DNA from: Thermoplasmatota archaeon
GTDB lineage: Archaea > Thermoplasmatota > Thermoplasmata > UBA10834
Assembly: GCA_016930135.1 (NCBI GenBank)
Contig: JAFGHM010000099.1
Span: 1-40,826 of the forward strand
DNA: 40,826 nucleotides
Direction: 5' to 3'
Below are positions 7,599 through 37,911 of this stretch, in pieces. The position numbers and the translations under genes are program-made. The notes beneath the pieces were generated by a model. The model ran no database searches. It was not told where the DNA came from and saw nothing but the letters and a program-made list of their open reading frames with translations. The first letter of the stretch is position 1. Every line of letters starts with the position of its first letter.

Positions 7599-10500
7599 AT
7601 GGGTCTGAGGGACAGAGCCAGAGAGACGGCTTCAAGGCAGACAGCGGAGCAGCCGGCGCCCTCCAGAGAAGAGGGTGCTGATGAGAGGCCTGCCGCGCAG
7701 CGGCCTGAGCAAGAAGCGGACGATCAGCAGCCTGTGCTCGAGTCCAGTGTGACCTATCTTGTCGAAGAGGAGAAGCCGGAGCTCGTCTATTCGCTGTTCG
7801 CCACCGCCACGCGCAGCGGCGTGCGCGGTATGATCATCTCAAGGACATACCCCAAGAATCTCCGGAAGTCGCTGAATCTACCAGATGTCCCCATATACTG
7901 GCTGACAAACGCCATGAGCGAGGATGCCATCGGCCCCAAGGACCTGGAGCGCCTCACGCTCAACATCAGGAGGTTCCTCGATGAAGGCGGGGGCCAGCTG
8001 GTGCTGATAGACTCCCTTGAATACATCATCACCAACAACAAGTTCGTCAGCGTCCTGAGGCTCATCCAGACGATAAGGGACCTCGTGGCCATTCATAAGG
8101 CGGTCGGTCTGGTGGGGCTCAAGGCATCCACGCTCGAGCCGGCAAAGCTGGCCTCGATACAGAGGGAGCTGGAGGTGTTTTCTGGTGACAAGCCCGCAGC
8201 GCCTCATCCTCGCGGCGAGGCCGAAGCCGAGGTAGTGGCCGAATTGAAGCAGGATGAGATGCTGGTCGAGGTCGAGAAGCTCGAACAGGAGAAGAAGAAG
8301 CTTGCGGCTCAGGCAGCCAGGTTGGCCGGGGAGTCTCAGAAGAACGCGGCGGACAGGGCCGAGCTCGAGAAGGAGCGGCAGGAGGTTCGGCAGACGCTAG
8401 TCCGGGTCCGTCAGACCAGGAAGGAACTGGAGAGCTTCAGGATCAAGCTCACGAGCGAGGAGGCGGAGCTCACCTCGAAGGTCAGGGCGAAACTGGCCAA
8501 GGAGATGCAGGCCCTCGATTCGAAGAGGGCGAACCTCGAGATGATGGAGAAGGAGATAGAGTCGAGGTATCAGCAGCTGGATAGGATAGTCGGGCTCAAG
8601 ACTGAACAGAGGATGGTCGAGGTCCAGGGTGAGAAGCGGCGACTCGAGCAGGAGAGGCAGAAGGTCGCGAGCCTGATGGAGGAGGTCCAGACCGAGAAGA
8701 AGACGATGGAGGAGCGCCTCCAGGCAATACAGGAGAACGAGGAGTCGCTCGAGCGGACGATACAGGAGGCAAAGGATCGCGACAAGAAGCTCGCCGAGAA
8801 GGAGCGCGCCCTGGCTCTTGACAGGGTCGAGCTGGAGAAGGTTCGTGCGAACACGGATACAGAGCGGAAGGAGCTCGAGCGACTCAAGAAGGCGCAAGAG
8901 GAGGAGACAGCCCATACGCGTTCCGAGCTCTCCCGAATAACCGCCGAGGTGAATCAGCGCGAGGAATCCATCTCCAAGCTGACGCATGAGCTGGAGAGCC
9001 TCAAGTCGAAGCTTGTCACTCAGGAGCAAGCACTCAACGAGCGCGAGAAGGCCATAGGCGCGAAGCTAGAAGCCCTCGACATGAAGGAGAAGTCCCTCGT
9101 CGCAGCCGAGACCGACTCGAAGCAGGCGTTGGAGAAGGCCTCGATGCTCGATGCTGCAGCGAAGGCAAGGGAAGAGCAGCTCAGGAAGGATCACGAGAAG
9201 TTCCAGGCGGACATGGAGGTCATGCGGATCGAACTCGTCAGGAAGACTGCGGAGCTGCAGAAACGCGAGGAGAAGTTGAGGGCGGACGAGGACAGGTTCT
9301 CCTCGGAGAGCGAGGCCAGGAACAAGGCGCTATCCGAACTCGAAGTTCAGCTCAAGGAAAGCAGCGTTGCCTTCCAGAAGACGGGAGATATGTTGGACAA
9401 GCGGGAGGCAGCCATCAAGAAGCTCGAGGAGGAGATGGAATCGATGAGGGCCGAGGCTGAGGAGTTCGCAGCCTCGCTCAACGATGAGAAGTCCTCCTTC
9501 GAGCGAGAGTCGCAGAAGGCCAGAGAGGAGCTTGTCAAGGATCGGAACACCTTCGAGCAGGACAAACTCGCATTCGAGCAGGAGAGGGGGGAAGCCGAGA
9601 GACAGATAACCGAGGCCCAGAAGGAGATCGACGAGAAGCTCGCGAGGATTGAGGAGGAGCGCAAGGAGGGAGAGGAGAAGGCTATCTCGGTCGACGAGAT
9701 GAGGAGCATCTTGAACCAGCGGGCGAGCGATGTCGCTGCTTCCGAACTGAAGATGGCCGAGGAGCGCGTCGCCTTGGATGGGATGCGTCGGGAGCTCGGC
9801 AAGAGGAAGGAAGAGCTGGAGCAGATCGAGAAGGAGCTCGCCGTCAAGAAGGAGCGGCTGGACCAGGCCACGGTGGAATTGCATGAGGCGAAGGCAGAGG
9901 TCGAGGACAGAGAATCGCTCCTGAAGGAGCAGCTCACTACTTCTGAGGGCGAGAAGGACGCCCTGGAAGCCAGAAGGAGCACGCTGCTGGAGCAGGAGCA
10001 AGCGCTCGAGAAATCCAAGACGGAGATGGAGGCCAAGGCTCAGGAGATAGCTTCACAGCAATCGGAGCTCGAGGAGTGGAAGGGGCAGCTTGACGATATC
10101 TCAGAATCGCTCAAGTCGAGGACAGCGGAGCTCGGGCAGAGAGAGAAGACACTGCAGTCCCGGCAGTCCGAGCTCGATTCTCTTCATGAATCGCTGAGGG
10201 AAGAGAAGGCGAAACTGGAGAGTGACTACGCATCCAAGTTCGCCGAGCTCGAGGCGATGCGAAAGACGTTCGAGGCAGAGTCGGCGTCCATGGAGGCGGC
10301 CAGGAGTAAGATGACCGCCACCGAGCAGGAGGCGAGCAACCGGGAGAAGAAGATCATCGAGGGCGAGAATGCGCTGGCCGAGAAACGGAAGGCTCTTGCC
10401 GACGCGGAGAGCGCCATCCAGTCCGCCAAGAAGGCGACTGCCGAGCAGGTAGAGAGCCTCAGAGCCGAGAAGCGCGAATTCGAATCGCAGCGCGAATCGC

Positions 10501-12656
10501 TTTCGAAGGAATGGGAGGCTCTGCAGCGGGAGAAGGATAAGATCCTCAAAGAGAACGAGGCCATCTGGGCTGACCTGGAGGAGGCCAAGGCGCAGCTGGA
10601 GCAGAGGGCAAGGGGGCTGGAGGAGAAAGACCAGCACATCTTGGCGAGGGAACTGACACTCAAGGCCTCCGCGAAAGGCATCTCGACGAAGGAGGTTGAG
10701 CTTGGGGAGCTGGAGAGCCGCCTCATGAAGACGGAGCAGGAGCTGAGCGAGAAGCAGGATGAGCTGGGAAGGGCCGAGGCAGAGCTGAGGGCGTCCCGGG
10801 CCGGCATTCAGGAGAAGGAAGCGCGCCTGAAAGACGTCGAAGCGAAGCTCGTCGAGTCCCAGGCCAGGCTCGACGAACGCGGGGCAGAGCTCAGGAATAT
10901 GGAGAAGGAGCTGGAGGAGTCTAGGGCGAGCCTGCGGACGAGGGAGTCCGAGCTTGGCCAGCTCGAGTCGGAATTGACGCAATCGCATTCACAACTCATG
11001 ACCAAAGAGGTCGAACTGAAGAGCTCCGAGGAGGAATTGAAGCAGTCTCGCGCGGATCTCGAATCCAGGGGCAATGAACTGAGGCAGATGGAGTCCCGTT
11101 TGCTGGATTCAGAATCAAGGCTCGGGACAAGGGAGGCGGAGCTCCGGGCGACGGCGGACGAACTCACGGCCTCGCGTGCCGATCTCGAAAAGGAGAGGGC
11201 GCACATCGCCAAGGTAGAGGAGAAGCTCAACCTGTCCGAGTCCCGGCTGTCCGCGAAGGAGTCGGATCTCAGAGATCTCGAATCCAGACTCGCGGAGTCA
11301 CAGGCGAAGCTTCATGCCAGGGACGAAGAGCTGAAGACAACCGCTCAGTCGCTCGAGGTCCAGAGGGAGGATCTCGGCCAGAGAACTCAGCAGTCAGAGC
11401 AGAGCATCCTGGAGGCCCAGACCGAGTTGGACAGACGGGCCGCCAGACTCCAGGGGGACTTCGAGGTCTTGAAGACCGAGAAAGGCCGGCTTGAGGCCGA
11501 GAGGGCGCGCCTGGAGGACGAACGAGGCGCCCTCGCTCAGTCGCAGGCGGAGATCGACAAGATCAAGGGTGAGCTCGAAGGCAGGGCTCACGAGCTCACT
11601 AGGCTGCAACAGGGCCTGTCAGGTAGAGAGGTGGCACTCGCCGAGCGAGAGGCGGCTGCTGCCGCGTCCGAGGCAGATATCAGGAAGCTGCAGTCGGATG
11701 TTGAGACCGTCAGGGAGGAGACAGCGGCATCCCTGAAGGATTTGGAGGAGCACGAAGCGAAGATCTCGGAGAAGGAGGAGGCATTGAGGGCGGATGAGGC
11801 CTCGGCTCTCGAGCTTGCGAACGAGCTGGAGAAGCGCGTTGTCGCCGTCGAGCAGAGGGAGGACAAGCTGAGCCAGGAGATCGAGCTGTTCGAGAAGCAG
11901 AGGAATGCGCTCATGACCAAGGAGCGGGAGGCCGGGCAGTCCCTTGAAGAGTACAGAGAGGTGCTCGACGAGATAGCCCGACAGCGGGACGCCCTGGCGG
12001 CCCAGCAGAAAGAGATATTCTCCCGGACTTCAGCCCTGGAAGAGACCATCGCCGAGATCGAGCTCATGCAGGAGGACCTGGACAGAGAACGGGGGCTCCT
12101 GGACCAGAAGGAGAGAGGCCTGGAGCAGCTGAGAGCGGAGCTGGACAAGTGGCGGCTCGAGCTGATGGGCAAGAGGGAACAGCTCGAAGAGGAAGTGAGG
12201 GTCAGGGTGTCCGAGGTGTCGAAGGAGGCGGCGGCCCTCACCAGGCCCCAGCCGATACAGGTCAGTGAGGACGAGCTTATCCGGAGGGAGCTGGAGCTGC
12301 GGAACCTCGGGGAGCGCATGAAGGAAAGAGAAAGGGACCTCGAGACCCGGGAGAGGACCGTCGTTGTCGAGATGGAGCAACTCGAGAAGGAGCGAGCGGA
12401 GGTGCAGGACCTCTGGGACAACATCGAGGCCTCGAGGAAGGGTCTGGCCGAGGGGCTGGACGAGAAGGCAATCACAGAGCTGGAGCGCAGGAAGACGGAG
12501 CTGGATGAGATCTATCTCAGACTCTCTCAGAGGGAGGAGGAGATACGCCGCGACGAGCGGAGGCTCGAGGACGAGTGGGCGCGGCTGCAGTCGATAGAGG
12601 GAGAACTCACCGATCTTGCCAAGGTCCTGAAGTCCAAGGAAGAGGACGCTGGGTAG
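7599..12656 (+). CDS. Giant coiled-coil protein with N-terminal DUF835 domain
   Basis: A 1685-residue protein. Residues 1-48 are a polar disordered leader. Residues 50-191 are a DUF835 domain closely matching the one at the end of the isoleucyl-tRNA synthetase in this window (shared YLVEE, YP, WL, PKDLE, D-x-LEY, ITNN and VLRLIQ motifs). From about residue 216 to the end it is an almost uninterrupted, highly charged heptad coiled coil of some 1450 residues. As a single dimeric rod that would exceed 200 nm, which is inference from 0.15 nm per residue. Residues 1000-1251 consist of 21-residue tandem repeats. No Walker motifs, signal peptide or membrane segment are seen, so it is neither an SMC/Rad50 protein nor exported. 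It is likely cytoskeletal or scaffolding; DUF835 probably gives the attachment point. Confidence 0.85.
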   Translation: MGLRDRARETASRQTAEQPAPSREEGADERPAAQRPEQEADDQQPVLESSVTYLVEEEKPELVYSLFATATRSGVRGMIISRTYPKNLRKSLNLPDVPIYWLTNAMSEDAIGPKDLERLTLNIRRFLDEGGGQLVLIDSLEYIITNNKFVSVLRLIQTIRDLVAIHKAVGLVGLKASTLEPAKLASIQRELEVFSGDKPAAPHPRGEAEAEVVAELKQDEMLVEVEKLEQEKKKLAAQAARLAGESQKNAADRAELEKERQEVRQTLVRVRQTRKELESFRIKLTSEEAELTSKVRAKLAKEMQALDSKRANLEMMEKEIESRYQQLDRIVGLKTEQRMVEVQGEKRRLEQERQKVASLMEEVQTEKKTMEERLQAIQENEESLERTIQEAKDRDKKLAEKERALALDRVELEKVRANTDTERKELERLKKAQEEETAHTRSELSRITAEVNQREESISKLTHELESLKSKLVTQEQALNEREKAIGAKLEALDMKEKSLVAAETDSKQALEKASMLDAAAKAREEQLRKDHEKFQADMEVMRIELVRKTAELQKREEKLRADEDRFSSESEARNKALSELEVQLKESSVAFQKTGDMLDKREAAIKKLEEEMESMRAEAEEFAASLNDEKSSFERESQKAREELVKDRNTFEQDKLAFEQERGEAERQITEAQKEIDEKLARIEEERKEGEEKAISVDEMRSILNQRASDVAASELKMAEERVALDGMRRELGKRKEELEQIEKELAVKKERLDQATVELHEAKAEVEDRESLLKEQLTTSEGEKDALEARRSTLLEQEQALEKSKTEMEAKAQEIASQQSELEEWKGQLDDISESLKSRTAELGQREKTLQSRQSELDSLHESLREEKAKLESDYASKFAELEAMRKTFEAESASMEAARSKMTATEQEASNREKKIIEGENALAEKRKALADAESAIQSAKKATAEQVESLRAEKREFESQRESLSKEWEALQREKDKILKENEAIWADLEEAKAQLEQRARGLEEKDQHILARELTLKASAKGISTKEVELGELESRLMKTEQELSEKQDELGRAEAELRASRAGIQEKEARLKDVEAKLVESQARLDERGAELRNMEKELEESRASLRTRESELGQLESELTQSHSQLMTKEVELKSSEEELKQSRADLESRGNELRQMESRLLDSESRLGTREAELRATADELTASRADLEKERAHIAKVEEKLNLSESRLSAKESDLRDLESRLAESQAKLHARDEELKTTAQSLEVQREDLGQRTQQSEQSILEAQTELDRRAARLQGDFEVLKTEKGRLEAERARLEDERGALAQSQAEIDKIKGELEGRAHELTRLQQGLSGREVALAEREAAAAASEADIRKLQSDVETVREETAASLKDLEEHEAKISEKEEALRADEASALELANELEKRVVAVEQREDKLSQEIELFEKQRNALMTKEREAGQSLEEYREVLDEIARQRDALAAQQKEIFSRTSALEETIAEIELMQEDLDRERGLLDQKERGLEQLRAELDKWRLELMGKREQLEEEVRVRVSEVSKEAAALTRPQPIQVSEDELIRRELELRNLGERMKERERDLETRERTVVVEMEQLEKERAEVQDLWDNIEASRKGLAEGLDEKAITELERRKTELDEIYLRLSQREEEIRRDERRLEDEWARLQSIEGELTDLAKVLKSKEEDAG
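10596..11351 (+). repeat. Tandem 63-base / 21-residue repeats within the coiled coil
   Basis: Twelve consecutive in-register units of exactly 21 residues (residues 1000-1251), with no indels. Units 4-12 are the clearest. Consensus by position: Leu 1, Ser 4, Leu 8, Arg/Lys 11, Glu 12, Glu 14, Leu 15 and Glu 19, so Leu recurs every seven residues (three heptads per unit). Flanking sequence keeps the heptads but loses the Ser-4 and Glu-Leu 14-15 pattern. DNA copies have diverged, so the duplication is old or constrained at protein level. Confidence 0.85.
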
Positions 12657-16751: not shown

Positions 16752-17768
16752 ATGGCGGTCGGGATCTCCGGCTACGGAATCTACATACCGAGGTTCAGGA
16801 TAAAGCGAGAGGAGTACGCGAAGGCGTGGGGGTCGTTCTCGGCGGCCGGGGTGACCGAGAAGTCCGTGTTCGGCTTCGACGAGGATGCTCTCACAGCGGC
16901 CGCCAAGGTCACGAGGCGAGCGCTCGAGTCGGTCCCGATGGAGGCGGACATGGTGACGAGGTTCGCACTGGCCACGACATCCGCGCCGTACCTCGAGAAG
17001 CTGCTCTCCGGGACCGTCCTGGTAAGCGTGGGAATTCCCAACAGCGCCTTCACATCGGACCACACCAGCTCTACCAGGGCAGGGACCGAGGCCATGCTGG
17101 CTGCGTTCGAGCACGTCATGGCCACCCAATCAGGGAAGGCGGTGGTGGCGGCGGCAGATGCGCCTAAGGCGAGCATGTGGGACGCCGTGGAACACGCTTT
17201 CGGGGCCGGGGCGGCTGCGTTCGTCATCTCATCCGACAACCTCATCGCCGAACTCGAAGGACATTTCTCGTATGCTAGCGAGCACTTCGGAGAGAGGTTC
17301 AAGCCAAAGGACGACCCGCTCGTGCGCGACCTCAACGTCAAGAAGTTCGCCGAGGGATCCGTCGTCCGCAACACGACCAGTGCGGGATCTGCGCTCCTCA
17401 AGAAGCTGGGGAGGAAGCCTGAGGATTACCAGCATGTGGTCATCCAGCAGCCTGATGCCAGAGTGCCAGTCACCGTGGCATCCAGGCTCAAGTTCACTGA
17501 TGCGCAGCTCGCCTCGAGCCTCGTTTCGAAGACCCTGGGGGACCTGGGTGCGGCCTCCGTCCCCGTAGCTCTCGCATCTGCGCTTGATGCGGCAAAGGCT
17601 GGAGACAGGATCATGGTCATATCATACGGCTCCGGGGCTGGGAGCGACGCACTCAGCTTCAAGGTCGTGACGGACAAGAAGGCCACGGTCAGGGTGCAGG
17701 CGGATACCGAGAGAAGGGAGTACATCGACTATGTGAAGTATCTCAAGATCAAAGGAGCTATCCAGTGA
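16752..17768 (+). CDS. HMG-CoA synthase-like protein lacking the catalytic triad (probable pseudoenzyme)
   Basis: A 338-residue homologue of archaeal HMG-CoA synthase. N-terminal VGISGYGIYIPRFRIK, the EKSV...DEDA segment and C-terminal YGSGAGSDA mark the family. Compared from memory with the methanococcal enzyme, all three catalytic positions are changed. The Glu of SESHPY is Thr76 (TTSAPY), the nucleophilic Cys of ACKAGT is Thr108 (STRAGT), and the His of FHQP is Gln232 (IQQP). Canonical HMG-CoA synthesis is therefore unlikely. The start is the third of three consecutive ATGs, 6 bases after GGAGGTGA, which itself overlaps the thiolase stop. In the known archaeal thiolase-HMGCS-DUF35 complex the synthase contacts both partners, so this copy may be a structural or CoA-binding subunit of the thiolase. 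Confidence 0.85.
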   Translation: MAVGISGYGIYIPRFRIKREEYAKAWGSFSAAGVTEKSVFGFDEDALTAAAKVTRRALESVPMEADMVTRFALATTSAPYLEKLLSGTVLVSVGIPNSAFTSDHTSSTRAGTEAMLAAFEHVMATQSGKAVVAAADAPKASMWDAVEHAFGAGAAAFVISSDNLIAELEGHFSYASEHFGERFKPKDDPLVRDLNVKKFAEGSVVRNTTSAGSALLKKLGRKPEDYQHVVIQQPDARVPVTVASRLKFTDAQLASSLVSKTLGDLGAASVPVALASALDAAKAGDRIMVISYGSGAGSDALSFKVVTDKKATVRVQADTERREYIDYVKYLKIKGAIQ

Positions 17769-17779
17769 GGTGAGATGAG

Positions 17780-18193
17780 ATGGCGCATGTTTCGGTGCCC
17801 ATGTACTGGCGGACGATACCCCAGCGGTACAAGCTGATAGGCTACAAGTGCAAGAAGTGCGGAGCAGTGAACTTCCCGCCCAAGGGCGTGTGCAAGCAGT
17901 GTCAGAGCTCCTCCGAGTTCGAGGAGACGCACCTCAGCGGCAGGGGGAAAGTGCACACGTTCGTGCTCATAAGCGCAGGCGGGGCGCCTCCGGAGTTCGC
18001 AGAGCAGGAGAAGGCCGGAGGGCAGTATCCAGTTGCGATTGTGGAGCTCGAGGAGGGGCCCAAGGTAATAGGGCAGATCGCCGACATCGACCCCAAGGAG
18101 GTCAAGATAGGCATGCCCGTCAGGACCGAGCTCAGGAAGATATACACCGAAGAGGAAGTCATCAGATACGGCTTCAAGTTCGTTCCAGCATAG
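17780..18193 (+). CDS. DUF35 zinc-ribbon/OB-fold acyl-CoA-binding protein
   Basis: A 137-residue DUF35 protein: an N-terminal rubredoxin-like zinc ribbon (CKKCG then CKQCQ, residues about 24-43) followed by an OB-fold (G-x-VHTFVLI, PVAIVELEEGPKVIGQI, then KIGMPVRTEL). In archaea these proteins bridge thiolase and HMG-CoA synthase in the acetoacetyl-CoA channelling complex and are needed for activity of some haloarchaeal beta-ketothiolases. Here it sits directly behind a thiolase and an HMGCS-like gene, 11 bases from the latter, so a three-protein complex is the natural reading. GAGGTGAG provides the ribosome site. Confidence 0.9.
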   Translation: MAHVSVPMYWRTIPQRYKLIGYKCKKCGAVNFPPKGVCKQCQSSSEFEETHLSGRGKVHTFVLISAGGAPPEFAEQEKAGGQYPVAIVELEEGPKVIGQIADIDPKEVKIGMPVRTELRKIYTEEEVIRYGFKFVPA

Positions 18194-18210
18194 AGGCGGA
18201 GGTGGAGAAG

Positions 18211-19128
18211 ATGGAAGCAGGCAAGTTGACGACGATGAAGGAGGCCGTGTCCAGGTTCGTCAAGGACGGCGACACTGTGTACCTCGCCGGGTTCACGCAT
18301 ATGATCCCGTTCGCAGCAGGGCACGAGATAATGAGACAGAAGAGGAAGGACCTCACGCTCGCCAGGGCGACCCCCGACATAGTCTACGACCAGATGATAG
18401 CCGCGGGATGCTGCAAGAAGGTCGTCTTCAGCTACGCTGGCAACCCAGGAGTGGGCTCCCTGAGATGCTTCAGACGAGCCTTCGAGAAGGGGCTGCCGAA
18501 CCGGATAGAGATAGAGGAGTACTCGCACTTCGGGATGTCAGGCAGGCTCTTCGCGGGCGCGACCAACATGCCCTTCCTGCCGATTAGGACCAACACCGGC
18601 TCCGACCTGCCCCCTCAGAACCCGAACATACGCACTGTCAAGGACCCCTACACGGGCGATGAGATATCCGTGGTTCCCCCTCTGAAGCCAGATGTTGCTG
18701 TCGTGCACGTCCAGAGATGCGACGCGAACGGCAACTCGCATGTCTGGGGGATCATCGGGGAGCAGAAGGACACGGCATTCGCCTCCAAGAAGGTCATAGT
18801 CACCGCAGAGGAGATCGTGGACGAGTCCCTCATCAGGTCGGACCCCAACAGGACGCTGATACCGGACTTCGTCGTTCATGCGGTTGTGCACGAGCCCTGG
18901 GCGTGCCATCCGTCGTATGTGCAGGGCTACTACGACAGGGACAATGATTTCTACATGGAGTGGGACGAGATCACAAAGGAGCACGAATCCACGATGAGAT
19001 GGATGGACGAGTGGGTCTTCGGGGTCGAGGACAGGCAGCAGTATGTGAAGAAGATGACCACCGAGAAGATACTGAAGCTGCTCCCGAAGGCAGCGTATAG
19101 CTCCCCTGTGAACTACGGGAGCGTGTGA
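18211..19128 (+). CDS. CoA-transferase subunit A (glutaconate CoA-transferase type)
   Basis: A 305-residue family I CoA-transferase alpha subunit, close in pattern to GctA-type proteins. Visible family segments are VKDGDTVYLAGFTHMIP near the N-terminus, VGSLRCFRRAFEKG, and DVAVVHVQRCDANGN. ATG 18211 was chosen because GGCGGAGGTGGAG lies just upstream; the open frame continues 5' into the DUF35 gene only as an out-of-frame shadow. The catalytic Glu is contributed by the B subunit, whose gene follows after 13 bases. The GctAB group covers glutaconate and 3-oxoadipate transferases, so 3-oxo acids are plausible substrates; the context suggests the 3-oxo acid formed by the aminotransferase downstream. 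Confidence 0.85.
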   Translation: MEAGKLTTMKEAVSRFVKDGDTVYLAGFTHMIPFAAGHEIMRQKRKDLTLARATPDIVYDQMIAAGCCKKVVFSYAGNPGVGSLRCFRRAFEKGLPNRIEIEEYSHFGMSGRLFAGATNMPFLPIRTNTGSDLPPQNPNIRTVKDPYTGDEISVVPPLKPDVAVVHVQRCDANGNSHVWGIIGEQKDTAFASKKVIVTAEEIVDESLIRSDPNRTLIPDFVVHAVVHEPWACHPSYVQGYYDRDNDFYMEWDEITKEHESTMRWMDEWVFGVEDRQQYVKKMTTEKILKLLPKAAYSSPVNYGSV

Positions 19129-19141
19129 GGAGGCGATGGTG

Positions 19142-33573: not shown

Positions 33574-33639
33574 GCCGACCTCGGGCGCGACGCGGTGGAT
33601 GCTGGCAATTGACGTCTCGATGATTTCGTGCTCAATATC

Positions 33640-33647
33640 TTTAAAAT
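33640..33647 (+). promoter_or_regulatory. TATA box for ileS
   Basis: TTTAAAAT centred near 33644 predicts a start near 33670. That would exclude ATG 33661 and makes ATG 33682 the most likely start of IleRS with a leader of about 12 bases. Confidence 0.5.
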
Positions 33648-33681
33648 ACCAGCCAGCAATATGGCCTATGGACGAGTCCTT

Positions 33682-36600
33682 ATGCGACAAGTCGACGAGA
33701 ATTACTCCCCCGTCCAATTAGAGAAAGACATAAAGGCGTTTTGGGAGAAGAACCGGATCTACGAGAAGACGAGGAAGGCTCGGGAGTCCGGGAAACCATA
33801 CTACTTCGTCGATGGGCCGCCCTACACGACCGGCTCCATCCACGTGGGCACCGCCTGGAACAAGATACTCAAGGACACGGTCGTCAGGTACCGGCGCATG
33901 CAGGGTCTGAGGGTGAGGGACCAGCCGGGGTTCGACATGCACGGCCTGCCGATCGAGGTCAAGGTCGAGCAGGCGCTGGGCATCAAGACCAAGCGGGAGA
34001 TCGAGGACCACGGGATTGACAAGTTCGTCTCCACCTGCAGGGAGTTCGCGCTCAAGTTCAAGGCGAAGATGACCGAGGAGTTCCGGTCACTGGGCGTCTG
34101 GATGGACTGGGATGCTCCTTATCTCACGGTCGACCCTAGCTACATCGCGTCCGTCTGGTGGACGCTCAAGCAGGCGCACGACAAGAACCTGCTCCTCATG
34201 GACCACAGGGTGCTTCCCTGGTGCCCCAGGTGCGAGACCGCCCTTGCCGAGGCGGAGATAGAATACTGGGACGAGACAGACCCGTCCATCTATGTCAAGC
34301 TCCCGATCGAGGGCGAGCCCAACTCGTATCTTCTGATATGGACCACGACGCCTTGGACCATCCCTGGGAATCTCGCAGCGGCGGTGCACCCCGAGTTCAC
34401 CTATGTCGTCGCGCGCGTCAGTAGAGGCACGATTGAGGAGAACCTCATCCTGCTGGAAGAGAAGCTCGAGGAGCTCAGGGCTGTCGCCGGGATCGAGGAT
34501 ATGACCGTCCTCGAGACCGCCAAGGGCTCGGAGCTCGTTGGCATGAAGTACAGGCATCCGCTTGAAGACCTGGTGCCGTACCAGAAGGAGGTCGGAGGGG
34601 CGCATGTCCACTCTGTCCTATCAGCCGACTCGGTGACGAACGAGAGCACAGGCATTGTGCACATCGCCCCCGGACACGGCCCTGAGGACTACGAGATAGG
34701 CAAGCGGCACGGCCTCGAGGCGTTCTCCCCCGTGGACGAGCGAGGCTGCTACACCGATGAGGCAGGGCCCAAGTACGCCGGCAGGAACGTGAGAGAGGCG
34801 AACCCCGTCGTCTCAAAGGACTTGGTCGAGCACGGCGCCATGTTTCACGAGGCAACGGTGACCCACAGGTACGGCCACTGCTGGAGATGCAAGAAGCCGA
34901 TCATATACCGCATAACGGACCAGTGGTTCCTCAAGGTCACGCAGTTCAAGGACGACCTGATCGCCGCCAACGACCAGGTCAGATGGTATCCGGATTGGGC
35001 CGGTTCGAGCCGGGAGAAGGACTGGATCGAGAACGCCAGGGACTGGTGCATAAGCAGACAGAGGTACTGGGGCACGCCTCTCCCGATATGGCGCTGCGAG
35101 TGCGGTAACTTCAGGCTCGTGTCTTCCATAGACGAGCTCAGGTCCGCCAAGGGCTACGTCGAGGGCATGGACGTCCACAGGCCTTGGATCGACAGGCTCA
35201 CGTTCGAATGCGACAAGTGCAGGAAGACCATGAAGAGAGTGCCCGATGTGCTGGATGTGTGGTTCGATGCAGGCGTGTGCTCGTGGGCTTCCCTGGGCTA
35301 TCCCGCACGCAAAGAGGAGTTCGAGGCGTGGTGGCCGAGCAAGTGGATCACTGAGGCCCATGACCAGACCAGAGGCTGGTTCTACTCCCAGCTCGTGACA
35401 GGGGTGCTCGCGTTCCGCAGGTCCCCCTATGAGTCAGTGCTCATGCACGGGTGGGCGCTCACGCCGGAAGGCCAGGCGATGTCGAAGAGCGACGGGACCG
35501 CCATGGATCCCGTCTCGATAGCCAACACTTCGGGCGCGGACTCCCTGAGGCTCTACCTCCTCAAGGCCAACGCGCCCTGGGACGACCTCTCGTTCCAGCC
35601 GGAGGGGGTCAAAGCCGCGAACAGGACGCTGAACATACTCTGGAACGTCTACAAGTTCGCCACGCTGTACATGTCCATAGACAAGTTCGACCCGGCATCG
35701 GTCAATCTGGGAGGCTTGACCGAGCACCTGAGGCCGGAGGACCGGTGGATGCTCTCGAGGACCGAATCACTGAAGGCGAAGGTCTCCGAGGCCATGGAGA
35801 AGTTCGAACTCCACACCGCAGCTAGGGCTCTCGAGAACTTCGTGGTCGAGGACCTCTCCAGATGGTATGTGAAGCTTGTCAGGGACAGGCTCTGGAAGGA
35901 GGGCGAGGACATGGACAAGTTCGCCGCCTTCAAGGTGCTGCACGAGTCACTGACAGCCTCCATAACCATGATGGCGCCCATGGCACCCTATGTGACAGAG
36001 GCGATACACTCCAATCTCGGGGGCAAGGAAGAGAGCGTCCACATGATGGACTGGCCTTCTTCCGATCCGAGGGCGATTGATGAGAAGCTCGAGGAGGGCA
36101 TGGCCGTCGTGAGGGAGATATCTGAACTCGTCGCCAGAGTGAGGCAGGAGTCCAACATCAACCTCAGGTGGCCCCTCAAGCGGATAGTCATCAAGGCACA
36201 GTCCGAGATCGTCAAGGATTCCATACTCACGCTCAGGGACTCGCTCCTGTCCCAGAACAACATCAAGGATCTCCAGATGGTCGCGGTCGGAGAGGAGTGG
36301 GACGAGATGATGCTCAGCGTCGTCCCGAACCCGAACGCGATAGGGAAGGTCTACAGGCAGTGGTCCAGCAAGATCGCCGTCCTGCTCAAGAACCGGCCCG
36401 CGAAGGTGATCAAGGCTGGCATAGACAAGGGGGAGTATTCGCTCGGCATAGAGGGCCAGCTCGTGAAGATCCTGCCGAACATGGTCTCCTTTGCGTCCAC
36501 GCTGCCGCCCGAGGTCGTCAGCGCGGAGTTCTCCAAGGGCATCATATACCTGGACCTGGAGCAGACGCCCACTCTGGAGGCCGAGGGGTTCTCGAGGGAG

Positions 36601-37911
36601 GTCATCAGGCGCGTCCAGCAGATGCGGAAGGACATGAAGCTCAATGTCGAGGAGTTCATCGGGATCGAGGTCGAGTGCAGCAAGCGCGTCGATGGCTTCC
36701 TCGATGTCTGGAAGGACAGGATCGTGCGGGAGACGAGGGCGACGAAGCTCGACATCGTCGATCAGCCCAAAGGGGACTACATCGTCGAGTGGAACGTCGA
36801 GTCAGAATCGCTCATCATAGCCGTCTCGTCCAAGAAGACGAAGAAGGTCTTGGAGGACATGTCAGGTATGCCCGGCATGACTGGCGAGAAGGCGAGGAGG
36901 CTCTACGAAGCGGGCTATACGACACCGGAGCACCTCAGCGCCGCCACTTTGGAGGACCTCGCCGCAGTGGCTGGAATAACCAGACTAGACGCCAAGGGCA
37001 TATACGACCACTATCACAAGGGAGAGGCCCCGCCAGCGCCGCCGGCCACTGCGCCCGCGACGCCGAAACCCCAGCCCGCTCCTGCGGCACCTGAGCCCGC
37101 CCCTGTGCCCACAGCGCCTGTCCAAGCTCCAGAGCAGCCCCCTGCAAAGGCCCCTGAGCCAGCACCTGCGCCCGAGCCCCAGAAGAAGGCGGAGGGGACA
37201 TTCATTGAGATCCTGAGGGGGATCGAGGGACTTGATCCCGGGGCGGCAGAGGCGGTCTACGAGGCCGGCTATCAGAGCCCACAGTCGCTGAAGAATTCCT
37301 CACTGGCGGATCTGATGAGGTCGACTGGCATCGCCGAACCAGCTGCGACCGTGCTGATCGAGCATTTTAGGGAGGAGGCCGCACTGGCCGCGCCCCCGCC
37401 CGCCGTTCCGAGACCAGTCAAGGCCGAGGTCGTCGGAGCGCCACAGGTAAGGGAGCTGGAGAGGTCGTTCTCATATCTTGTCGAGGAGGACAAACCGGAG
37501 GCGTCTTACAACCTGTTCATCAACACCCTCAGCAAGGGCATGAAAGGATACTGCATAACCAGGAACTACCCTGCGAAGATACGCAGCAAGTTCGACCTAA
37601 GCGACACGCCCGTGATCTGGCTTTCGAACGTCGGTCGTGAGAACACCATCCGTCCGAAGGATCTGGAGAAGCTGAGCCTCACACTCGAGCAGTTCCTGTC
37701 CCAGGAGGGAGGGGGCATAGTGCTCCTCGACGGGCTGGAGTACCTCATCACGAACAACAACTTCATCACGGTCCTGAGGCTGATACAGTCTCTCAGGGAC
37801 CAGGTCGCGATCAACCAGTCGATACTCCTGATGGCTGTGAACCGGTCCACGCTGGAGAGCCACCAGCTGAACCTGCTGGAGCGCGAGGTGGACTACACAA
37901 TCACTGCTTGA
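33682..37911 (+). CDS. ileS: Isoleucyl-tRNA synthetase with C-terminal HhH-HhH-DUF835 extension
   Basis: A 1409-residue class I synthetase that charges tRNA-Ile, against about 1040-1070 for archaeal IleRS. The HIGH motif is HVGT (54-57) and KMSKS is MSKS (600-603), with an intact CP1 editing region and C-terminal anticodon part up to about 1055. Beyond that, residues 1057-1113 form a helix-hairpin-helix-like unit (GMPGMTGEKARRLYEAGY). Residues 1115-1172 are a Pro/Ala linker, and 1173-1232 a second, similar HhH unit (GLDPGAAEAVYEAGY). Residues 1260-1409 are DUF835, strongly resembling the head of the giant coiled-coil protein. The reading frame is continuous with uniform codon use, so the fusion looks real. 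DUF835 may tether the synthetase to another protein or sense a signal (inference). Confidence 0.93.
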   Translation: MRQVDENYSPVQLEKDIKAFWEKNRIYEKTRKARESGKPYYFVDGPPYTTGSIHVGTAWNKILKDTVVRYRRMQGLRVRDQPGFDMHGLPIEVKVEQALGIKTKREIEDHGIDKFVSTCREFALKFKAKMTEEFRSLGVWMDWDAPYLTVDPSYIASVWWTLKQAHDKNLLLMDHRVLPWCPRCETALAEAEIEYWDETDPSIYVKLPIEGEPNSYLLIWTTTPWTIPGNLAAAVHPEFTYVVARVSRGTIEENLILLEEKLEELRAVAGIEDMTVLETAKGSELVGMKYRHPLEDLVPYQKEVGGAHVHSVLSADSVTNESTGIVHIAPGHGPEDYEIGKRHGLEAFSPVDERGCYTDEAGPKYAGRNVREANPVVSKDLVEHGAMFHEATVTHRYGHCWRCKKPIIYRITDQWFLKVTQFKDDLIAANDQVRWYPDWAGSSREKDWIENARDWCISRQRYWGTPLPIWRCECGNFRLVSSIDELRSAKGYVEGMDVHRPWIDRLTFECDKCRKTMKRVPDVLDVWFDAGVCSWASLGYPARKEEFEAWWPSKWITEAHDQTRGWFYSQLVTGVLAFRRSPYESVLMHGWALTPEGQAMSKSDGTAMDPVSIANTSGADSLRLYLLKANAPWDDLSFQPEGVKAANRTLNILWNVYKFATLYMSIDKFDPASVNLGGLTEHLRPEDRWMLSRTESLKAKVSEAMEKFELHTAARALENFVVEDLSRWYVKLVRDRLWKEGEDMDKFAAFKVLHESLTASITMMAPMAPYVTEAIHSNLGGKEESVHMMDWPSSDPRAIDEKLEEGMAVVREISELVARVRQESNINLRWPLKRIVIKAQSEIVKDSILTLRDSLLSQNNIKDLQMVAVGEEWDEMMLSVVPNPNAIGKVYRQWSSKIAVLLKNRPAKVIKAGIDKGEYSLGIEGQLVKILPNMVSFASTLPPEVVSAEFSKGIIYLDLEQTPTLEAEGFSREVIRRVQQMRKDMKLNVEEFIGIEVECSKRVDGFLDVWKDRIVRETRATKLDIVDQPKGDYIVEWNVESESLIIAVSSKKTKKVLEDMSGMPGMTGEKARRLYEAGYTTPEHLSAATLEDLAAVAGITRLDAKGIYDHYHKGEAPPAPPATAPATPKPQPAPAAPEPAPVPTAPVQAPEQPPAKAPEPAPAPEPQKKAEGTFIEILRGIEGLDPGAAEAVYEAGYQSPQSLKNSSLADLMRSTGIAEPAATVLIEHFREEAALAAPPPAVPRPVKAEVVGAPQVRELERSFSYLVEEDKPEASYNLFINTLSKGMKGYCITRNYPAKIRSKFDLSDTPVIWLSNVGRENTIRPKDLEKLSLTLEQFLSQEGGGIVLLDGLEYLITNNNFITVLRLIQSLRDQVAINQSILLMAVNRSTLESHQLNLLEREVDYTITA

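Follow-up and report, generated by a model that had tools for sequence, protein, structure and literature searches.

An Isoleucyl-tRNA Synthetase with a C-Terminal HhH-HhH-DUF835 Tail in the Class Thermoplasmata: Spread of the Fusion and Its Separation from Catalytic Motifs

Main Finding

The isoleucyl-tRNA synthetase (IleRS) encoded in the window, i.e., the whole 40,826 bp stretch of DNA analysed here (contig JAFGHM010000099.1 of the Thermoplasmatota archaeon assembly GCA_016930135.1), continues in one reading frame into a tail ending in a DUF835 domain. The fusion is widespread in the class Thermoplasmata, DUF835 is its most constrained part within the window's family, and, as judged from the sequences compared, the tail is evolutionarily independent of the catalytic motifs in both directions. 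The tail probably has a second, undescribed job, since tail and active site were lost separately in different lineages.

Gene Structure and Domain Composition

The ileS-like gene occupies positions 33628-37908 of the forward strand as a single uninterrupted frame, with the stop codon extending to 37911. It begins with a GTG codon at 33628, but translation may in fact start at an internal ATG a few codons further on. The following features were assigned:

33628..37911, + strand: IleRS with C-terminal HhH-HhH-DUF835 tail (ileS-like gene), 1427 codons plus stop
33733..35571, + strand: class I synthetase catalytic domain with editing (CP1) insertion, PF00133 (Pfam, motifs)
33841..33852, + strand: HVGT, the class I HIGH motif in its archaeal HxGT form, residues 72-75
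35479..35490, + strand: MSKS (KMSKS motif), residues 618-621
35740..36183, + strand: anticodon-binding domain PF08264 (Anticodon_1), residues 705-852 (Pfam)
36259..36828, + strand: IleRS C-terminal domain PF19302 (DUF5915), residues 878-1067 (Pfam)
36853..37005, + strand: first HhH_5 unit (Pfam, AlphaFold)
37006..37188, + strand: Pro/Ala-rich linker, low confidence in the AlphaFold model
37189..37389, + strand: second HhH_5 unit (Pfam, AlphaFold), which several members of the family lack
37492..37887, + strand: DUF835 (PF05763), residues 1289-1420, E 2.9e-36 (Pfam)

The tRNA-synt_1 profile of Pfam matched residues 36-648 with an E value of 5.5e-125, and both editing motifs, WTTTPWT and HIAPGHGPED, were present. 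The core scored 977 bits with the ileS equivalog TIGR00392 (NCBIfam), for which the cut-off is 621. HHH_5 was matched in two stretches (E 1.5e-14), and DUF835 scored 124.7 bits, with a gathering score of 33.1. Pfam, NCBIfam, and the single frame bear out the original prediction of a complete IleRS (HVGT and MSKS) extended in frame by an HhH unit, a Pro/Ala linker, a second HhH unit, and DUF835. The linker is probably disordered, to judge by the model. A REC domain was not found in the window IleRS by Pfam, so the protein does not qualify as a response regulator. HVGT is the usual form for this archaeal IleRS type, with HxGT seen also in Halobacteria and Methanosuratincola, and its reading as a decayed HIGH was ruled out.

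Occurrence of the Fusion

Neither a misassembly or frameshift nor an absence of the fusion from relatives, either of which would have spoken against the original prediction, was found. The same junction with an intact frame was present in congeners from separate assemblies (75-76% identity), and other members of the family, single-contig genomes among them, share it in assemblies of their own. Named relatives bearing the fusion include RBG_13_57_23 (the window's genus), Prado237, bin41, bin352, SpSt-1159, and several Methanomassiliicoccus genomes. A tail-profile search in a 300-genome survey of the class Thermoplasmata gave long fused frames under about two dozen family codes (f1, f2, etc., which are anonymous labels of the genome search, f1 being the window's family). 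IleRS and DUF835 were joined in one frame in the same-family genomes with a complete locus as well as in many other families; the architecture thus recurs in independent assemblies.

Outside the class, none of the 16 genomes of the same phylum had an IleRS match running into the tail; many of them do have DUF835 proteins, and their long DUF835 frames were not IleRS matches. In the IleRS tree, unfused out-of-class sequences of type A (defined below) lay outside the fused ones, the deepest nodes being weakly supported; all trees were quick searches with SH-aLRT support only. A split IleRS gene in genome G034 was considered as a split intein and rejected, both halves ending in N stretches at contig joins.

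Tail Anatomy, Constraint, and Predicted Fold

DUF835 is the constant element of the tail, and the HhH units are optional. From protein to protein, the interval between synthetase and DUF835 may hold one to three HhH units, zinc ribbons, TPRs, or Pro/Ala linkers; in f9, it is reduced to a mere 31-45 residues without HhH, and the second HhH unit is absent in many f1 members. The original prediction also allowed that the HhH units bind nucleic acid. As the main purpose of the tail this is unlikely because these units vary and, in other families, give way to zinc ribbons or are lacking altogether; for the same reasons, HhH was ruled out as the core of the feature.

When the window protein was compared with seven f1 members, dN/dS lay at 0.04-0.10 in DUF835 and at 0.10-0.22 in the catalytic region; values for the first HhH unit began at 0.15, and HhH and linker were mostly above the catalytic region (Nei-Gojobori-type counts with synonymous sites partly saturated). 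DUF835 was the slowest-evolving part of the protein in these comparisons.

In the AlphaFold model, the tail consists of two small well-predicted helical units and a compact alpha/beta DUF835, with low-confidence linkers between them (mean pLDDT 86 for the tail and 95 for DUF835 alone). The best PDB matches of the DUF835 model in Foldseek included FlaH, the RecA-family ATPase PH0284, and KaiC, with TM scores over the query of 0.69-0.78, which corresponds to a RecA-like fold for the predicted model; the whole tail (HhH and DUF835) matched Rad51/RadA. The curated RadA/Rad51 score was about 30 bits, from the HhH part only, versus 259-361 required. A Walker A motif (GxxxxGK[ST]) was found in none of 77 DUF835 sequences, and an active ATPase was ruled out owing to the missing P-loop. 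On the predicted structure, DUF835 is an inactivated KaiC/RadA-type ATPase fold without a P-loop, which agrees with the label of inactivated KaiC (iKaiC) that the domain bears in archaeal response regulators (PMC5847659). The same paper reports DUF835 from archaeal signalling proteins, as the original prediction had stated.

Two IleRS Types and Loss of Catalytic Motifs

The tree revealed two deeply separate IleRS types in the class Thermoplasmata. Type A (HxGT) is the tail carrier; type B (HIGH) is about 33-40% identical to the window protein and was never fused among the sequences read. Type A alone was found in f2, f9, f13, f15, f16, and f20, among others. The fused enzyme is the sole IleRS found in these six families, where "sole" means that no other was found in genomes that are mostly incomplete bins; families of this kind support aminoacylation of tRNA-Ile by the fusion, as far as sequences can indicate it. 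Type B alone was found in f10, f14, f18, f26, and f31, and both types in nine families (f1, f4, f7, f12, f17, f19, f22, f25, and f28). None of the nine two-type families had the canonical motifs in both copies.

In f4, f7, f12, f17, f22, f25, and f28, HIGH and/or KMSKS are missing from type A, and type B keeps its motifs. The window's family f1 shows the reverse: type A has its motifs, whereas KMSKS is gone from type B in each of the seven genomes read, in some of them together with HIGH. The type B fragment of the window genome has KISRE at the KMSKS site, its HIGH region lying beyond the contig end, and that of the congener G007 keeps HIGH and has KISRA. Despite the loss of KMSKS, the f1 type B proteins (L150/L284, L151-L154, L256, and L257) are under purifying selection (dN/dS 0.12-0.20) and therefore probably have some role too. 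In the window genome (G000), a DUF835-only gene and a gene that reads as Orc1/Cdc6-like lie on the same contig (C37) as the type B IleRS. In the f19 type B protein (L156, genome G043), GVHH replaces HIGH, the same swap as in the mupirocin-hyper-resistant form of bacterial IleRS2, in which GXHH is active (PMC10485003). An initial reading of this copy as dead was withdrawn for that reason, and both IleRS copies of f19 may work.

The 15 motif-less type A sequences, which come from seven families, formed a single clade (100 SH-aLRT). This is consistent with a single loss of catalysis, where loss of activity is read from the motifs and the placement is provisional because of many long branches. Their complete frames are 1310-2929 residues long, and pN/pS of the synthetase part, at 0.21-0.43 in the three families compared, indicates purifying selection, so they do not look like pseudogenes. 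In f12, DUF835 of the motif-less proteins had pN/pS of 0.08-0.10; in f7, DUF835 was not clearly more constrained than the body. The motif-less fused proteins L138-L141 (f12 and f17) are 1758-2929 aa long; in the two scanned with Pfam, L139 and L141, the stretch from synthetase to DUF835 includes TPRs, zinc ribbons, and several HhH units.

Separation of the Tail from Catalysis

Six families of the motif-less clade kept a good DUF835, the exception among the seven being f4. The motif-less paralogue of f4 has several HhH units, but its DUF835 is decayed in one species and went undetected in two more, so tail loss is possible in this clade too. In the opposite direction, the tail was lost about five times on the tree from IleRSs with intact motifs, namely in f21, in nearly all f6 (gut Methanomethylophilaceae type), in two f29 genera, and in one further lineage; these tail-less enzymes end 3-13 residues after the core. 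Since enzymes with intact motifs have dispensed with the tail several times, it is less likely to act in charging itself.

The f6 genomes contain at most one or two DUF835 proteins, and tail-bearing genomes mostly 5-13 or more (13 was the largest number of candidates scored per genome, so that upper counts mean "at least"). The sole f6 genus with two DUF835 proteins (g59) also has the fused IleRS. The parallel between DUF835 scarcity and tail loss in f6, together with g59 keeping both, suggests that the tail works together with other DUF835 proteins. Family f21, with about seven DUF835 proteins and an IleRS without tail, is a misfit, so tail and DUF835 network do not always go together.

The class offers a natural experiment in which a housekeeping enzyme and its attached module were split in both directions, so a further role for an archaeal synthetase can be put to the test. 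DUF835, a domain of unknown function, gains a highly conserved context. Moreover, Thermoplasmata lineages differ in which IleRS type keeps the catalytic motifs. Automatic annotation presumably names the motif-less proteins isoleucine--tRNA ligase as well, and genome-based work could choose the wrong IleRS copy if they are annotated alike.

Other DUF835 Carriers and Long Helical Proteins

A second DUF835 protein is encoded in the window:

7599..12656, + strand: giant coiled-coil protein, 1685 aa, headed by DUF835, candidate partner of the IleRS tail
7770..8171, + strand: DUF835 of the coiled-coil protein (Pfam)

The original prediction had noted that a related DUF835 heads this protein, and the domain was indeed the closest to the IleRS DUF835 among the 12 other copies of the assembly (48% identity vs. 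27-37%). In the DUF835 tree, the coiled-coil copy fell within the IleRS-DUF835 clade (branch support 95) and the other copies of the genome outside it; the alignment had 141 columns, and many nodes were weak. Coiled-coil proteins of equal length and layout were found in f1 and f2. In f7 and f9, a second DUF835 protein likewise grouped with the IleRS DUF835 of the same family. In f7, the examples read were soluble and helical with zinc ribbons; in f9, a membrane segment was predicted, and the one protein scanned and read fully was PEGA-like. These groupings fit a paired module whose second carrier would switch between lineages. Anchoring of the IleRS tail on a coiled-coil scaffold, as the original prediction proposed, is plausible because the coiled-coil DUF835 is its nearest relative in the genome.

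DUF835 looks like a widely reused module in the window genome. In this archaeal genome bin (G000), L008 (contig C2, about 17248-19131) has a DnaA ATPase domain of the bacterial type (E 2.9e-50) ahead of its DUF835. Among the other G000 DUF835 proteins (L012 on contig C118, L004, L005, and L013), one has V4R and several have predicted membrane segments.

In addition, a copy of the IleRS C-terminal domain (DUF5915, residues 818-1066 of the window IleRS) forms the end of a set of large helical proteins, about 1000-2400 aa long. They were found in f15 (L251, 3-3050), f19 (L252, L253, L258, and L259), and f21, f23, and f27 (L243-L247); those of f15 and f19 are encoded immediately upstream of the fused IleRS. 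This connects IleRS parts to long helical proteins for a second time, and independently.

Proposed Role of the Tail

The best explanation, in which we have moderate confidence as a whole, is that the window protein would be a working IleRS that has carried, since early in the class Thermoplasmata, a non-catalytic DUF835 assembly or signalling module not needed for charging. DUF835, as an inactivated KaiC/RadA-type fold, would assemble proteins by binding itself or a matching DUF835 elsewhere; by analogy with KaiC/RadA assemblies, such a fold would be suited to self-type binding. The likeliest partner in the window lineage would be the giant coiled-coil protein of the same window. If a coiled-coil or membrane protein carried a matching DUF835, pairing with it would bring the synthetase onto a scaffold or make its state readable. 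The module would tether the synthetase, or report its state, in a DUF835-based scaffold or signalling network. The sequences themselves show the fusion, its spread, the constraint on DUF835, and its independence from the catalytic motifs; the assembly role of DUF835, the partner's identity, and the direction of any signal are inferred.

A bolder form of this explanation, which we regard as speculative, is that an IleRS connected to a coiled-coil or signalling scaffold by an inactivated KaiC domain would be an archaeal counterpart of eukaryotic synthetase-based amino acid sensing, with one branch having become a non-catalytic sensor or hub and a second IleRS doing the charging. The most interesting version of the assembly or signalling reading, although an unlikely one, is a Gcn2-like sensor: the synthetase body would sense isoleucine or uncharged tRNA-Ile, DUF835 would relay this to signalling partners, and in seven families the body would now be a pure sensor. 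The presence of DUF835 in archaeal response regulators (PMC5847659), motif-less bodies held together with a signalling-type domain under whole-protein selection, and the well-known synthetase paralogues with new roles (PMC9437257) argue for it. Against it, the f4 and f7 bodies are strongly diverged, editing motifs included, and the fusion has neither a kinase nor a receiver domain.

We consider it rather improbable that the tail is an accessory element that binds tRNA or the ribosome through its HhH units, with DUF835 helping them, and improves aminoacylation as the RNA-binding domains added to eukaryotic synthetases do. Both HhH_5 units and zinc ribbons commonly bind nucleic acid, and they sit between synthetase and DUF835 in most families. 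However, f9 has no HhH and many f1 members lack the second unit, the tail persists without catalytic motifs and is missing from intact enzymes, and HhH evolves fastest and DUF835 slowest. A passive passenger, i.e., an old functionless fusion never purged, is very unlikely: several tail losses occurred without obvious harm, but DUF835 persists in about two dozen families and its constraint, the strongest in the protein within f1, contradicts this reading. That an assembly artefact or frameshift joined two genes has a negligible probability, for although the window comes from a 125-contig genome bin, the identical junction in congeners and many other independent assemblies, single-contig genomes included, excludes it for practical purposes.

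Comparison with Known Systems

Appended domains and synthetase-like regulators are of a known kind. The IleRS-DUF835 combination, its spread, and its two-way separation from catalysis were not found in the part of the literature that could be searched, and no published account of the fusion turned up there. In the same literature, DUF835 was treated in PMC5847659 alone. The archaeal response regulators described there have the same domain, and Thermoplasmata are among their hosts; DUF835 is joined to REC/PAS in them and to a synthetase here.

Bacterial IleRS1/IleRS2 pairs also represent two divergent IleRS genes per genome, both of them active and the second conferring mupirocin resistance (PMC10485003, PMC9437257). 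In contrast, Thermoplasmata usually have one copy with both canonical motifs, and the tail occurs on one type only. RadA/Rad51 are alike in the order of parts (HhH_5, then a RecA-like core) and in fold; the IleRS tail differs in lacking Walker A, in its shorter core, in the HhH units that are not always present, and in being fused to IleRS. In Gcn2, a synthetase body is used outside or beyond charging. The same applies to HisZ and other synthetase-like regulators (PMC9437257). Unlike in Gcn2 and HisZ, the fusion involves another synthetase and another appended domain, and motif-bearing and motif-less orthologues occur within one class.
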